A stretch of 64,000 nucleotides of DNA from Aquabacterium humicola. Lineage in GTDB: Bacteria > Pseudomonadota > Gammaproteobacteria > Burkholderiales > Burkholderiaceae_C. The notes under the pieces are model-generated. The model was not told where the DNA came from and ran no database searches. It saw only the letters and a list, made by a program, of their open reading frames with translations. Shown piece by piece: positions 6,151 through 14,483 of the stretch. Positions within the stretch are counted from its first letter, which is position 1. Every line of letters starts with the position of its first letter. Made by a program: the position numbers and the translations under genes. The stretch is from the NCBI RefSeq assembly GCF_030167915.1, contig NZ_JARGNB010000011.1, positions 1 to 64,000 of the forward strand, given 5' to 3'.

Positions 6151-6363
6151 ATGGCCAGCCCGGGCAAGAAGTCCTTCCTGCTGCGCATCGATCCGGCGCT
6201 GTGGGCCGAGATCGAGCGCCTCGCCGCCGGCGAGCTGCGCAGCGCCAACGCGCAGGTCGAATACCTGCTGCGCGAGGCGCTGCGGGCGCGGCTCGGCGAC
6301 AAGTCCTCGTCTGCGCTGGGTGAAAACACGACGGCGATACTGCGCCGCACGAAGAACCCATGA
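6151..6363 (+). CDS. ribbon-helix-helix (Arc/CopG-like) DNA-binding protein
   Basis: 70-aa protein. The N-terminal stretch [19 protein letters not shown] followed by [14 protein letters not shown] matches the beta-strand/helix/helix of Arc/CopG-type repressors, with the strand residues S-F-L-L-R expected to read DNA as a dimer. The 3' end overlaps the next start region (ATGA at 6360). It is probably the autoregulator of this operon, acting at the palindrome at 4956-4967. No partner toxin gene of a known family is adjacent, so I would not call this an antitoxin. Confidence 0.75.
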
Positions 6364-6371
6364 GGAGAGCC

Positions 6372-7175
6372 ATGAGCAACAGCACCCCGCAGGACACCCC
6401 GCAGGACCAGGCCGGCCGCTTCCGCGCGCTGCACCAGGGCCCCGTCTTCGTCGTTCCGAATCCCTGGGACGCCGGCTCGGCGAAGGCGCTCGAGAAGATC
6501 GGCTTCCACGCGCTCGCCACGTCCAGCGGCAATGCCGCGATGGTGCTGGGCCGCCGCGACGGCCAGATCACCCGCGACGAATCGCTGGCCCATGCGAAGG
6601 CGATCGTCGAGGCGGTGGACATCCCGGTGGCCGCCGACCTGGAGAACGGCTTCGGTGCCGACCCGGCGCATGTCGCCGAGACGATCCGGCTCGCCGCGGG
6701 CGTCGGCCTCGCGGGCGGTTCGATCGAAGACGCTAGCGGCGATCCGGAGCGGCCACTGTATTCGTTCGAGCACGCGGTCGAGCGCATCGCCGCCGCCGCG
6801 CAGGCCGCACGCGCGCTGCCGGCGCCCTTCGTGCTGACCGCGCGCTGCGAGAACTTCCTGCGCGGCAATCCCGACCTCGACGACACCATCCGCCGCCTGC
6901 AGGCCTTTGCAGCGGCCGGCGCCGACGTGCTGTTCGCGCCCGGCCTGCCGACGCTGGACGCGGTGCGCACGGTGTGCACCGCGCTGGAGGGCAAGCCGGT
7001 CAACTTCATGGTCGGCATCAAGGGCAAATCCTTCAGCGTCGCGGAGCTCGAAGCCGCCGGCGTGCGCCGCATCAGCCTGGCCACCTCGCTGTACCGCGCG
7101 GCGATGTCGGGCTTCCAGCGCGCGGCGCGCGAGGTGTTCGACGCGGGCACGTTCTCTTACCTCGATACCCTCTAG
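6372..7175 (+). CDS. isocitrate lyase/PEP mutase superfamily protein
   Basis: 267-aa alpha/beta-barrel enzyme of the PEP mutase/isocitrate lyase superfamily. Diagnostic segments are [14 protein letters not shown] near the start, the strand-end acids in [13 protein letters not shown] and [10 protein letters not shown] that bind Mg2+, and [10 protein letters not shown]. Members carry out C-C or P-C bond chemistry on alpha-keto acids (2-methylisocitrate lyase, oxaloacetate decarboxylase, phosphonopyruvate hydrolase). The exact substrate is not clear: the lyase-type KKCGH loop is absent. The ATG at 6372 follows GAGGAGA; an overlapping ATG at 6360 is also possible. Closely follows the RHH gene and may be cotranscribed. 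Confidence 0.8.
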
Positions 7176-7235: not shown

Positions 7236-8804
7236 ATGTCACTGACCGTCGTGATTCCCGCGCTGAACGAAGAACGCCGCATCGCCGAGGTGGTGCAGGC
7301 CGTGCGCGCACAGGCGCCGCAGCTGCCGATCATCGTCATCGACGATGGCTCCGTGGACCGCACCGTGGAGCTGGCGCGCGGCGCCGGCGCGCGCGTGGTG
7401 ACCAGCTCGATGCTCGGCAAAGGTGCGTCGATGCAGGACGCGCTGGAGCTGGTGCAGACGCCGTGGGTGCTGTTCCTCGACGGCGACCTGACGGGCCTGC
7501 GGCCCGACCTGGTGCAGCGCATGACGCAGCCGCTGGCCGATGACACGGCCGATCTCGTGAAGGCGCGCTTCGGCCGCAGCGGCGGTCGCGTCACCGAGCT
7601 GACCGCCAAGCCGCTGCTGCGCGCGTTCTTTCCCGAACTGGCCATCTACTCGCAGCCGCTCGGCGGCATCGTCGCCGGCAGCCTGAAGCTGCTGCGTTCG
7701 CTGACGCTGGAGGACGACTACGGCGTCGATGTCGGCCTGCTGATCGACGCGCACCTGTGCGGCGCGCGCATCGCCGAGGTCGACATCGGCGAGCTCGCGC
7801 ACGACAGCCAGCCGCTGGAGCGCCTGAGCCTGATGGCGCAGCAGGTCAGCCGCGCGATCATGCAGCGCGCGAAAGTCTCCAGCCGCTTCTCGTTCGAGCA
7901 GTTCCTCGAGCTGGAAGAGCTGGAGCGCCAGTCGCGCGGCACCTTCGAGCGGCTGGCCGAGCGCCTGGCCGATGCCGAGCGCATCGCGCTGCTGTCGATC
8001 GACGGGCCCTTGAGCGACCACTCGTTCATGCACGAGCTCGCGCGCCAGACCGGACGCGAGGCGGAACTGACCAAGGCCATCGAGCTGAATGCCCCCGACG
8101 GCCCGGGCCAGCGGCAGGCGATCGCGCGCGTCTTCAAGTTCGTGCACCAGCGCGACTTCGAACGCGTGGCGCGCGCGCTGCCGCTGCATGGCGACGCGGT
8201 CGAGGCGATCAAGCGCCTGCGGCGCGCCGGCTGGCTGGTCGGCGTGGTCAGCGACGGCTTCTTCGTCTCCACCGACATCGTGCGCCGCCGCGTCTTCGCC
8301 GATTTCGCGATGGCCCACTTCATCGCCTTCGGCGCGCAGATCTGCACCGGCCTGGAGCGCCTGAACCCGGCCTTCGTGCACGGGGACCATCCGCAGCCCG
8401 ACGCGATCGACAAGGCCAACGTGATCCGCCACCTGCGCGACCAGGTGCCGCGTGCGGCGCGCATCGTGATGGTCGGCGCCGGCACGCACGACCGCGCGAT
8501 GCTGGCGCTGGCGGACCAGGGGATGATCGTCGACAGCCGCCATCCGGCCGCCGACGATGGCCGCTTCGAGCGCTTCAGCAGCCTCGCTGCCGTGGCCGAC
8601 CGCCTGCTCGCGGGCGACACCGGCCCGGCGCCGTCGCTCGACGGACCGGTGGCCGCGGCCATGGCCGTCGCCGCGGCCTGCGAGCGGCGCGGGCCGGTCA
8701 GCGCAGGCTCACCGTCTGACGCTTCCATGCCGGGTCCTGCCAGCGGGCGAACGCCGACAGCAGCTCCGGGGTGCTCGCCTGCTTCTCCATTTGCAGGGTC
8801 GTGA
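7236..8804 (+). CDS. glucosyl-3-phosphoglycerate synthase-like (GT81) enzyme fused to an altered HAD domain
   Basis: 522-aa two-domain protein. Residues 1-215 match GT81 glucosyl-3-phosphoglycerate synthases: VVIPALNEER, IDDGS, LGKGA, the metal-binding FLDGDL (80-85), GGRVTELTAKPLL, QPLGG, YGVDVGLLIDA and AHDSQPL with the His at 189. Such enzymes join a nucleotide sugar to 3-phosphoglycerate. Residues 245-455 have the layout of a SerB-like HAD phosphatase, with motif II Ser339 and motif III Lys393 in place. However, motif I reads S254-I-D-G-P where D-x-D-G-T is expected, and motif IV reads GAGTHD (414-419) where GDGxND is expected. The nucleophile Asp and one Mg2+ ligand are therefore missing and the HAD part may be inactive. 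The 3' end overlaps the convergent gene by 107 bp; the last 60 residues are low in complexity. Confidence 0.8.
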   Translation: MSLTVVIPALNEERRIAEVVQAVRAQAPQLPIIVIDDGSVDRTVELARGAGARVVTSSMLGKGASMQDALELVQTPWVLFLDGDLTGLRPDLVQRMTQPLADDTADLVKARFGRSGGRVTELTAKPLLRAFFPELAIYSQPLGGIVAGSLKLLRSLTLEDDYGVDVGLLIDAHLCGARIAEVDIGELAHDSQPLERLSLMAQQVSRAIMQRAKVSSRFSFEQFLELEELERQSRGTFERLAERLADAERIALLSIDGPLSDHSFMHELARQTGREAELTKAIELNAPDGPGQRQAIARVFKFVHQRDFERVARALPLHGDAVEAIKRLRRAGWLVGVVSDGFFVSTDIVRRRVFADFAMAHFIAFGAQICTGLERLNPAFVHGDHPQPDAIDKANVIRHLRDQVPRAARIVMVGAGTHDRAMLALADQGMIVDSRHPAADDGRFERFSSLAAVADRLLAGDTGPAPSLDGPVAAAMAVAAACERRGPVSAGSPSDASMPGPASGRTPTAAPGCSPASPFAGS

Positions 8805-11520: not shown

Positions 11521-12234
11521 ATGAACAGCGGGAATGCGCCGATCGTGGCGCTGATCGAGGACGATGAGCCGACCAGCAACCAGCTCAAGGGCTGGATCGA
11601 GGCCGCGCGGCCGGGCCTGCGCATCGAGCAGTGGTTCGACCGCGATGCCGCCGAAGCCGCGCTGGCGCGCACCCGCTACGACCTGGTGGTGCTGGACATC
11701 GAGCTCGGCCGCGAGCGCCATGCCGGCGTCGCGCTGATCAACACCATCAACCGGCTGCACCACGGCACGCCGGTGCTGGTGGTGTCGGCGATGCCGGCGG
11801 CCATCTACCGCGGCATCATGAAGGCGCTCGACGCCTGGGACTACCTGCAGAAGACGAGCTTCTCCGAGGCCGACTTCATCGACACCGTGCTCGAGATGCT
11901 GCGCGCCGTGCGCGACAGGGCGCCGGTCGCCGCGCCGGCGGGCCCCGCCAGCGAGCTGGCGATCGACCCGCTGCGCCAGAGCACGCCGCTGTGGCGTGGC
12001 CAGCGCCTGAACCTGCCGCTGACGGCGCAGCGCATCCTCGCGACGCTGTACCAGCGCCGCGGCGAGGTCGTCAGCTACGAGGCGCTGTTCGAGGTGGTCA
12101 AGAGCGGCCGCAACCGCGACAACGTGCGCAAGCACGTCAGCACGATCCGCGATGCGCTGCGCGAGATCGAGCCCGGCTTCGACGGCATCGAGAACGTGCC
12201 GATGCGCGGCTTCCGCTGGAGCGGCCCGAAGTGA
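11521..12234 (+). CDS. response regulator with winged-helix output domain
   Basis: 237-aa response regulator. The receiver domain has the acidic pocket EDDE, the acceptor Asp in YDLVVLDIELG and the lysine in YLQKTSF. A linker of about 30 residues leads to a C-terminal DNA-binding domain (about 145-237) with LTAQRILATLYQRRGEVVSY and a terminal FRW wing, an OmpR-like fold although divergent. Its stop overlaps the GTG start of the kinase gene. A GACAAT sequence lies nine bases before the ATG and there is no Shine-Dalgarno sequence. It is divergent from the SPFH/SH3 operon, a likely but unproven target. Confidence 0.85.
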   Translation: MNSGNAPIVALIEDDEPTSNQLKGWIEAARPGLRIEQWFDRDAAEAALARTRYDLVVLDIELGRERHAGVALINTINRLHHGTPVLVVSAMPAAIYRGIMKALDAWDYLQKTSFSEADFIDTVLEMLRAVRDRAPVAAPAGPASELAIDPLRQSTPLWRGQRLNLPLTAQRILATLYQRRGEVVSYEALFEVVKSGRNRDNVRKHVSTIRDALREIEPGFDGIENVPMRGFRWSGPK

Positions 12235-14483
12235 GGTCGTGGCGCCTGCCGCGTGCTGGTCTCGGGGGCTGGCGGCTGCCGCGCGCCGTGCCGCTGCGCC
12301 TGCGCATCTTCTTCCGCGCGGTGTTCGCGGGGCTGGCGCTGGCCACGCTGGCGATGGCGGTGGGCGTGCTGGTCGAGGAAAAGCAGCTCGCGCACCGCCA
12401 CTACCAGGCCGGATTGCAGAAGACCCAGGAGCAGATCGTCGCGCGGCTGCGCCACCCGACCGGCCAGCTGGCGCTGCTGAACCCGCGCATGGACCGGGAC
12501 AAGCCGGGCGATGTTGGCGGGCCGCTGCGGCCGCTGGTGCTGCCCTTCTCGGCGATCGATTTCGACGACAAGACCAAGGTGCAGCAGGCGGTCGAGATGG
12601 CCGGCTGCCTGGTGCAGTACCGCGACGGCGCGACGCTGTGCGTGGCGGTCGGCAACAACCCGTTCGCCGGGGGCTTCATCTACCTGGCGGGCAGCTTCGC
12701 CAGCGGCGCGCTGGTGCCGCATCTGCCGGGCGAGCTCGACTTCACGACCTCGCACCGCGTGCGCGTCTCGGTCGCGATGCGCGGCCAGACCTGGCGTTGG
12801 GTGGCGCCCTTCGAAGCGCTGGCCGATGGGGCGAACGTCGGCCCGTCCGGCGCGCCGGGATTGCGCGGTCGACTGACCGGTTATGTCGACGGCGTGCCGA
12901 TCGTGCACGGCACGAAGACCGTGCGCGACTTCCGCGGCTGGTTGTGGCAGGACGGCCGCTGCATCGACGAGCCGGCCGACCCGGCGCGGCACGCGAGCGT
13001 AGCGAGCCCATCGGGCCATGCGAGCGCAGCGAGCCCATCGGGCCATGCGAGCGCAGCGAGCCCCTCGGGCCACGCGAGCGCAGCGAGCCCATCGGGTGAT
13101 TGTGCGAAGCGCTCCTTCTTTTCGATCCGCCTGCCGGTCGAGGTCTTCCGCGACGCGCTGTTCCAGGCCGACCGGGGGCGCATCGTCTGGCCGCCGCCGG
13201 ACCTGGCGCAGATCCTCGTGCGGCTGCAGGTGCTGGCGCCGGGCGACGGCGCGCCGCTCTTCGACAGCGACAGCGAAGGGGCCGAGCCGCCGTTCGCGCT
13301 GGCCGACCTGCGCACGCTGCTGCTGCCGGGCGAGCGCCTGGCGCTCCGCCGCGAGGGGGCCACCGAGGATCTGGTCACGCTGGTCGGCGGCAGTGCGGCC
13401 GACGAGGCGCCGCGCGCACGCTGGATCGACGGCCTGGTGCGCCGGCTGCCGGTGGACGGCTACGACGCGCCGCTGCAGCTGCGCGGGGCGATCGCGACGC
13501 CGCTGGGCCGCTACCAGCTGGTGCTCGACGGCGACGTGCGCAGCGTCAACCGCACGCTGGCCGCGGTCGCCACGCGGGTGTCGGGTTACGTCGGCGCGAT
13601 GCTGGCCGCGGTGCTGGTCGCCTGGCTGCTGATCGAGCTGCGCATCATCCGCCGCATCACCGTGCTGACCAAGCGCGCGGCCAGCGTCTCGCAGGGCATG
13701 AAGTCGGCCGGCGGGCTGCCGCGCATCGACGTCGCCGACCTGCGCGGCAGCGACGAGCTGGGCGTGCTGGCGGGCGGCCTGCAGGATCTGCTGCAGCGCG
13801 TCGACGAGGACCTCAAGCGCGAGCAGATCCGCGCGCAGCAGGAGAAGGACCAGTGGCATGCGGTGGGGCACGAGATCGTCTCGCCGCTGCAGTCGCTGCT
13901 GGCGCTGCATGGCGACCCCGACGATCCGAGCCACCGCTACCTGCGCCGCATGCAGCAGGCGGTGCAGGTGCTGTATGGCCAGGCCTCGCCGAGCGAGGCC
14001 TTCGAATCGACGACCCTGCAGCTGGCGCCGATCGACCTCGAGACCTTCCTCGGCCATGTGGCGGCGAATGCCGACGCGGTGGGCATCCACCGGCTGCGCT
14101 ACGAGTCGCCCGGCGCGCGTGTGCTGGTGCGCGCCGACGAGTTCTCGCTGGAGGACGTGGTGACGCACGTGCTGCGCAACGCCGACCGCCACCGCACGCC
14201 GGGCAGCACGATCACGCTGCGGCTCGGTTTCGATGAGCGCGAGGCCCGCGTCGAGATCTGGAACGAGGGCGCGCCGATACCCGAGGCGATGCTGGAGAAG
14301 ATCTTCGAGTACGGCGTGTCCGACCTGGGGGACCAGGCCGGTGACGACGACCGCTCCGGCGAGGGCCACCGCGGCCAGGGCCTCTTCGTCGCGCGCACCT
14401 ACATGGCGAAGATGGGCGGCACGATCGCCGCGCGCAACGGCGACGGCGGCGTGACCTTCACCTTGCGGCTGCCGCGGGTGTGA
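12231..14483 (+). CDS. membrane sensor histidine kinase with 9-residue tandem repeats in the sensor region
   Basis: 750-aa kinase starting at the GTG that overlaps the regulator stop (GTGA). First transmembrane helix at about residues 25-47, a large periplasmic region, and a second helix at about 450-472 followed by a HAMP-like linker. The H-box is [10 protein letters not shown] with His547; the ATPase domain shows VLRNADRH (N-box), WNEGAPIP and [11 protein letters not shown]. The periplasmic part contains four copies of HASAASPSG (residues 254-289), encoded by a 27-bp minisatellite. This block looks like an in-frame insertion, since flanking sequence resumes ordinary composition. The sensed signal is unknown. 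Confidence 0.85.
12990..13097 (+). repeat. 27-bp tandem repeat, four copies, inside the kinase gene
   Basis: Four in-register 27-bp units at 12990, 13017, 13044 and 13071, differing by a few substitutions, each encoding HAS(A/V)ASPSG. The unit length is a multiple of three, so changes in copy number would alter the length of the sensor region without shifting frame. Each unit carries GCGAGCGCAGCGAGC, which could fold on itself. Confidence 0.9.

Follow-up and report, generated by a model that had tools for sequence, protein, structure and literature searches.

Question and locus

Can a synthase keep a fused phosphatase domain that has lost its nucleophile, and what would the domain then be for? 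A single gene in the window, the whole stretch of 64,000 nucleotides from Aquabacterium humicola that was analysed, raises this question. In mycobacteria, glucosylglycerate is made by GpgS and a separate GpgP (PMC4555173). In the window, one open reading frame with an ATG start, confirmed at 7236-8804 on the forward strand, encodes 522 amino acids with a synthase half and a phosphatase-like half:

7236..7940, forward strand: GT81/GpgS-like glycosyltransferase domain, residues 1-235 (profile, solved-chain alignment, predicted fold)
7968..8621, forward strand: SerB-like HAD-IB domain without catalytic residues, about residues 245-462
8283..8306, forward strand: RRRVFADF motif, residues 350-357, after motif II; chosen after the alignment had been seen
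8622..8804, forward strand: probable run-on tail, residues 463-522 (pLDDT, overlap, length of L034)

The C-terminus, some 60 codons past the aligned domain, is probably a run-on because L034, the closest relative, has a row of only 470 residues. The last 60 residues have a pLDDT below 50 in the AlphaFold model, and 107 nt of the tail are shared with the 3' end of a convergent ORF ending at 8698.

The synthase half

The first half, whose family we take to be GT81, matched the NCBIfam profile NF010496 (GpgS) over residues 2-243 with E 2.9e-53 and 180.9 bits. The family cut-off of 262 was not reached, nor was it by five relatives (176-192 bits). The domain is therefore labelled GpgS-like and not GpgS. 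In sequence, the half matched solved GpgS chains with an E value of 7.7e-29. In a comparison of predicted fold, the synthase model aligned with 7pdo at a TMt of 0.67 and 38% identity. The motifs are K62, DGD (82-84), GRVT (117-120), QPL (140-142), YGVD (162-165) and H189. Counting through a HMMER alignment to solved chains placed the role residues of Mycobacterium tuberculosis GpgS at K62, D82, D84, V119, T120, L142, Y162, D165, H189 and M200; their functions in donor, metal and acceptor binding are described in PMC2581804. The features of a GT-A enzyme are present: the DxD, the donor-network lysine with an acidic residue (D165) and the loop binding 3-PGA (R118-V119-T120). The preliminary description had called the GT81 motifs intact; K62, DGD, GRVT and H189 are indeed in place, and profile and fold matches agree.

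The window protein thus resembles GpgS in fold, DxD, K62, acceptor loop, His189 and Met200. It differs by a start about 40 residues later than in mycobacterial chains, by the added C-terminal HAD domain and by Asp165 in place of Glu232 of the M. tuberculosis enzyme; mannosylglycerate synthase MgS also has Asp there. The window protein retains 96 of the 104 synthase positions that are conserved in at least 85% of the intact rows defined below (95/104 in its intact sisters). The synthase is likely to be active, judging from these residues. Its donor is probably NDP-glucose. Mannose is a possible donor sugar because Rubrobacter MpgS matches as well, in sequence and in fold comparison.

A HAD domain without catalytic residues

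The second half matched the serB profile TIGR00338 over residues 248-429 (E 1.7e-8, 34.3 bits; cut-off 144). Its HAD-SF-IB score of 20.5 bits lies under the 45-bit cut-off. Among four intact fusions tested, L063, L018 and L020 reached this cut-off (48-50 bits) and L066 missed it (34 bits). Motif I reads SIDGP (Ser254-Ile-Asp256-Gly-Pro258), with Ser254 replacing the nucleophilic Asp. In motif IV, GAGTHD (Gly414-Ala415-Gly-Thr-His418-Asp419), the first Asp is replaced by Ala415. Ser339 of motif II and Lys393 of motif III are present. All of these had been noticed before and were confirmed in the translated ORF. The damage extends further: Pro258, Ser263, Gln292 and His418 stand where 97-100% of the 35 intact fusions keep Thr258, Arg263, Arg292 and Asn418. 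As far as residues can indicate it, there is good support for a loss of phosphatase chemistry, in the window clade and in other lineages of the family.

The AlphaFold model of the window protein has a mean pLDDT of 83.8 and a pTM of 0.81, with both domains confidently modelled, as in the intact fusion L009. Within the HAD domain, means over 10 residues are 86-96, with dips to 74, 60 and 63 near residues 281-290, 381-390 and 431-440. The domain superimposes with phosphoserine phosphatase of M. jannaschii (1l7o_B) at a TMt of 0.81. The model of the intact fusion L009 (mean pLDDT 90.5, pTM 0.89) reaches a TMt of 0.86 with Helicobacter pylori SerB (3m1y_B). The HAD-IB fold is predicted to survive in the window protein, an outcome towards which a predictor that draws on intact relatives is biased. 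Fold and motif layout are common to SerB and the window HAD domain, whereas the catalytic residues of SerB are gone. Other differences to SerB are features of the intact family: Arg at position 263 versus Glu in the alignment with M. avium SerB, and Ser-Asp versus Ser-Gly. Arg263 would be well placed to bind an acidic substrate, for instance a phosphoglycerate; the window clade is without it.

Intact and broken relatives

A homologue search gathered 25 related loci, and whole genomes were searched in addition. All fusion searches used the broken window protein as query, with a limit of 1e-40 outside the genus and at most three candidates scored per genome at family, order and phylum level. Within the genus, a match of some kind at 1e-3 turned up in 17 of 21 genomes, a fusion scoring better than 1e-100 in only seven (G000, the window genome, and G020, G007, G010, G003, G006 and G017). 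At 1e-40, fusions were found in 11/399 family genomes, in 13/399 order genomes and in 1/398 phylum genomes, the window's own. Both genomes in the genus of G096 had the fusion (2/2), as did 6/64 and 5/10 genomes in two further families; all of these are overlapping sets. The distribution is patchy, given the low tallies across the family, order and phylum sets. Plasmid records yielded no match at 1e-30.

Open frames with a BLASTP E value of 1e-30 or better entered the tree set; a frameshifted relative would thus have been shortened and not counted. Eight repeats of another locus's sequence (L003, L008, L009, L010, L011, L013, L016, L061), the window copies L001 and L033, and weaker partial matches such as L031, L032 and L040-L049 were left out. 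The deduplicated alignment has 49 rows, 46 with a HAD domain and three archaeal GT81 proteins without it, which form the outgroup and are excluded from the counts below. The archaeal GT81 proteins L025, L026 and L027 are 41-44% identical to the synthase half; where the fusions have the HAD domain, they carry a different C-terminal region that is hydrophobic.

A fusion was called intact when it had all five of D254, D256, S/T339, K393 and D415. This holds for 35 of the 46 distinct fusions. The 11 broken rows are the window protein, L034, L035, L082, L039, L051, L073, L074, L083, L084 and L085. Intact fusions occur in Burkholderiales and other phyla (e.g., L063/L009, L018, L020) and have the same architecture as the window protein; they keep D254, D256, K393 and D415, where the window protein has S254 and A415 at the first and last of these positions. 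The nearest intact relatives, L064 and L063, belong to another genus of the same family and are 63-65% identical to the window protein.

The differing damage in the broken rows bears on the suggestion in the preliminary description that the HAD domain has turned to altered chemistry. Ser254 might for example act as nucleophile, or the domain as a phosphotransferase, and Asp256, Ser339, Lys393 and Asp419 would still be at hand in the window protein. Asp415 is gone together with the substrate-side residues, position 254 is Cys, Ser or Asp in the remaining broken lineages with different damage elsewhere, and L035 has Glu for Asp256. Because the pocket is eroded so widely (Thr258, Arg263, Arg292, Asn418), altered chemistry is highly improbable.

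Recurrent loss

The tree was built on the synthase part only (235 columns). The window protein, L034 and L035 form one broken group (support 96/83). The L034 sequence is that of L008 from Aquabacterium terrae, and the L035 sequence is that of L010 from a Burkholderiales MAG. Gene order is common to the three loci: all nine window genes tested, including the fusion, are present in both others. Intact L063 and L064 are the sisters of the broken trio (100/100 for all five); at the intact-sister loci L097 and L098 only the fusion matched, and L097 covers just 12 kb. A local mutation or sequencing error is ruled out, since two further genomes carry losses at the same locus. The earlier expectation was that Asp in homologues would reduce the change to a local mutation; 35 of the 46 fusions do have it, and the loss is nonetheless not local. 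As to S254/A415 as a clade-level trait, the loss is common to three syntenic genomes, and the sister genes are intact.

Further broken rows on the tree are L082, L039, L051 and the group of L073, L074, L083, L084 and L085. The fewest changes that explain the pattern are five (4-6 in bootstrap trees), and at least four are forced by well-supported, starred branches; of 46 inner branches, 19 are left open, and L039 pairs with L036 on a branch without a star (93/95). A single clade of all 11 broken rows was rejected by the AU test (p 0.00039; 0.00004 without L051 and L083), the constrained group being defined by the trait and some end branches being long. Phosphatase activity appears to have been lost repeatedly in the family, in apparently independent events and mostly with the domain retained. 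Loss would be the natural direction, rather than gain, because other HAD-IB enzymes have these residues.

Retained residues and constraint

A conservation threshold of 85% among the intact rows yields 47 HAD positions, of which the window protein keeps 33 and its intact sisters 46. Retention in the 11 broken rows is uneven. Ten columns (254, 256, 258, 263, 292, 339, 393, 415, 418, 419), which we take to be the pocket from known HAD motifs, phosphoserine phosphatase residues and the SerB alignment, are retained in 34/110 cells. The six RRRxFADF columns are retained in 65/66 cells and the other 31 conserved columns in 233/341. In a subset of six rows (window, L082, L039, L073, L083, L051, with L073 and L083 from one group), Fisher values for motif and pocket versus other columns are 8e-6 and 9e-5, respectively; these are descriptive and not tests, as the alignment guided the choice of motif and the cells are non-independent.

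Nei-Gojobori estimates point to weakened selection on the HAD domain. Its omega is 0.36 (95% CI 0.24-0.53, dS 0.40) between the window protein and L034, compared with 0.12 (0.06-0.20, dS 0.37) for the intact pair L063-L064. For the synthase part, the same pairs give 0.12 and 0.16. Between the window protein and L035, the HAD omega is 0.69 (CI 0.48-0.98), close to neutral. In the broken pair L073-L085, HAD and synthase omega are both 0.04, with saturated dS. The median HAD/synthase dN ratio is 2.61 for the 22 pairs that include a broken row and 1.80 for the 83 intact pairs, with overlapping ranges (1.70-4.27 and 0.63-2.64); pairs had a synthase dN of 0.02-0.2, L051 was left out, and no p-value is given because pairs share branches. 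Constraint on the HAD domain is relaxed in several, not all, broken comparisons, and it is not absent.

Slow decay could produce part of this picture. A redundant phosphatase domain would then be on its way out without a new role, and the leftover conservation would serve folding or solubility of the fused chain. The raised dN ratios, the near-neutral omega within the window clade and a paralogue in the same genome with a much shortened HAD domain (L051) all fit. The upper bound of 0.53 for the window protein and L034 does not, and neither do the single open frames that span the HAD domain in broken rows, the almost complete retention of RRRxFADF or the pair L073-L085, whose HAD/synthase dN ratio of 1.72 is no faster than that of intact pairs. 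Slow decay is considered rather unlikely. Active retention is not proven, because the omega with L035 reaches 0.69.

The preferred reading, to which we give an even chance, is a glycosyl-3-phosphoglycerate synthase with a phosphatase-dead HAD-IB domain that would be retained for a structural or regulatory part. In the ancestral fusion, one polypeptide probably both made a sugar phosphoglycerate and removed its phosphate, as intact fusions may still do. The hydrolase step would later have become dispensable, in the window lineage and independently in several more. These lineages would then have lost the nucleophile, the Asp of motif IV and the Arg residues on the substrate side, and kept the fold and RRRxFADF. 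The HAD domain would now most likely stabilise or regulate the synthase, and the phosphate, if its removal is required, would be taken off in trans by a separate putative phosphatase. The 'regulatory or binding domain' of the preliminary description fits the omega values below neutrality and the retained motif; the role itself we infer.

Second copy and other phosphatases

Another fusion gene of the window genome, G000:C12:318507-319475 (L051; L096:8345-10204), is broken as well. Its synthase part is about 60% identical. Its HAD domain is shortened and degraded, with 14 of 47 conserved positions kept, and looks like decay. A convergent Na_H_Exchanger gene lies beside it. None of the matches of G000 to the intact HAD domain was an intact second copy that could supply phosphatase activity: they are the window gene, its shrunken paralogue on C12 and a SerB-like protein at 29% identity. 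No intact fused HAD domain was obtained from nine of the ten genomes with a broken fusion, two of which are 86-90% complete. The exception, G007, carries both types, one broken and one intact (L088, G007:C50; L087, G007:C70), and offers a natural comparison within one genome.

An MpgP-type HAD-IIB phosphatase (TIGR01486) exceeded the cut-off in none of 25 genomes, 15 of which have intact fusions only; G000 and G020 had no match at E 0.001. Histidine phosphatases (PF00300), the fold type of mycobacterial GpgP, were present in 21 of 21 genomes searched, with broken and intact fusions alike, and do not discriminate. The sugar-3-phosphoglycerate might itself be the useful product in these lineages, so that hydrolysis is no longer wanted. 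The recurrence of the loss, the lack of an intact fused HAD domain in nearly all genomes with a broken fusion and the MpgP result agree with this, although the latter includes carriers of intact fusions. Histidine phosphatases are abundant, however, and the phosphorylated form is not known to be put to use by these bacteria. A useful phosphorylated product is improbable. The losses leave these bacteria with a missing phosphatase or with some use of the phosphorylated product.

Gene neighbourhood

Neighbours at the window locus are PEP_mutase, Band_7, NUDIX and DUF815 genes, the first of them directly before the fusion:

6360..7175, forward strand: PEP_mutase-family gene, 60 bp upstream of the fusion; syntenic in both other genus members whose HAD is broken at this locus

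Elsewhere in the family, 20 of 41 loci scanned had an ion-transport gene within about 2.5 kb of the synthase (16/30 intact, 4/11 broken), counted for families that were chosen because they recur and with no formal background rate: ClC channel, MscS channel, Na+/H+ antiporter, Na+:solute symporter and Na+/Pi cotransporter. In seven loci (L088, L094, L095, L099, L100, L101, L106), the gene immediately upstream of the fusion, on its strand, is a ClC chloride channel gene, and a MarR-type regulator is close by. In L111 and L113, MscS and ClC are on the other side. ClC genes missed by the crude gene calls were recovered by tblastn. None of the ion-transport neighbours was found at the window locus. 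No phosphatase gene adjoining the fusion stood out among the recurrent neighbour clusters inspected, for which gene calls were crude, high-GC frames misassigned and annotation partial. The neighbour L018:3244-4695 matched no family in a Pfam scan. Farther downstream in the window, the ORF 11631-14483, behind a response-regulator gene, contains a tandem HASAASPSG-like repeat at about 12990-13100.

The neighbours favour a role of the fusion family in osmotic or ionic stress, because ion-transport genes recur beside the synthase. Glucosylglycerate is called an osmolyte in PMC11009771, and PMC2874817 assigns GpgS/GpgP to a predicted osmoregulation network.

Comparison with known systems

A fused synthase with a dead phosphatase half is known for sucrose synthesis; here it is found in a bacterial family outside that pathway. 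The phosphatase domain of sucrose-phosphate synthases (SPS) is of the HAD-IIB class, versus HAD-IB in the window protein. Inactive phosphatase-like halves may also occur in trehalose-phosphate synthases. Among the matches listed in the open-access literature, no title or opening of an abstract dealt with GT81-HAD fusions or their catalytic loss.

The closest parallel is the SPS of Synechocystis PCC 6803, a sugar-phosphate synthase for which PMC9971976 describes a fused, non-functional HAD phosphatase domain and functional bidomain relatives. The window domain is dead by sequence only, glycosyltransferase and product differ, and a separate SPP is mentioned for the Synechocystis enzyme. An inactive SPP isoform is reported from Arabidopsis (PMC5113954). 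In some Marinobacter, glucosylglycerol-phosphate phosphatase and synthase are fused (PMC10873239). Like the window protein, this fusion joins synthase and phosphatase for a glycoside osmolyte; its product is glucosylglycerol.

The parallel with sucrose-phosphate synthases allows a tentative extension of the preferred reading. The HAD domain may have a second, non-catalytic role in control or assembly of the synthase, involving RRRxFADF, that outlives the phosphatase, so that catalysis could be lost repeatedly, as in sucrose-phosphate synthases. For sucrose synthesis, PMC9971976 lists among open questions how forms that have phosphatase activity co-evolved with forms that lack it. With several apparently independent losses and intact relatives, the GT81-HAD fusions make the residual role of a dead domain testable by comparison.
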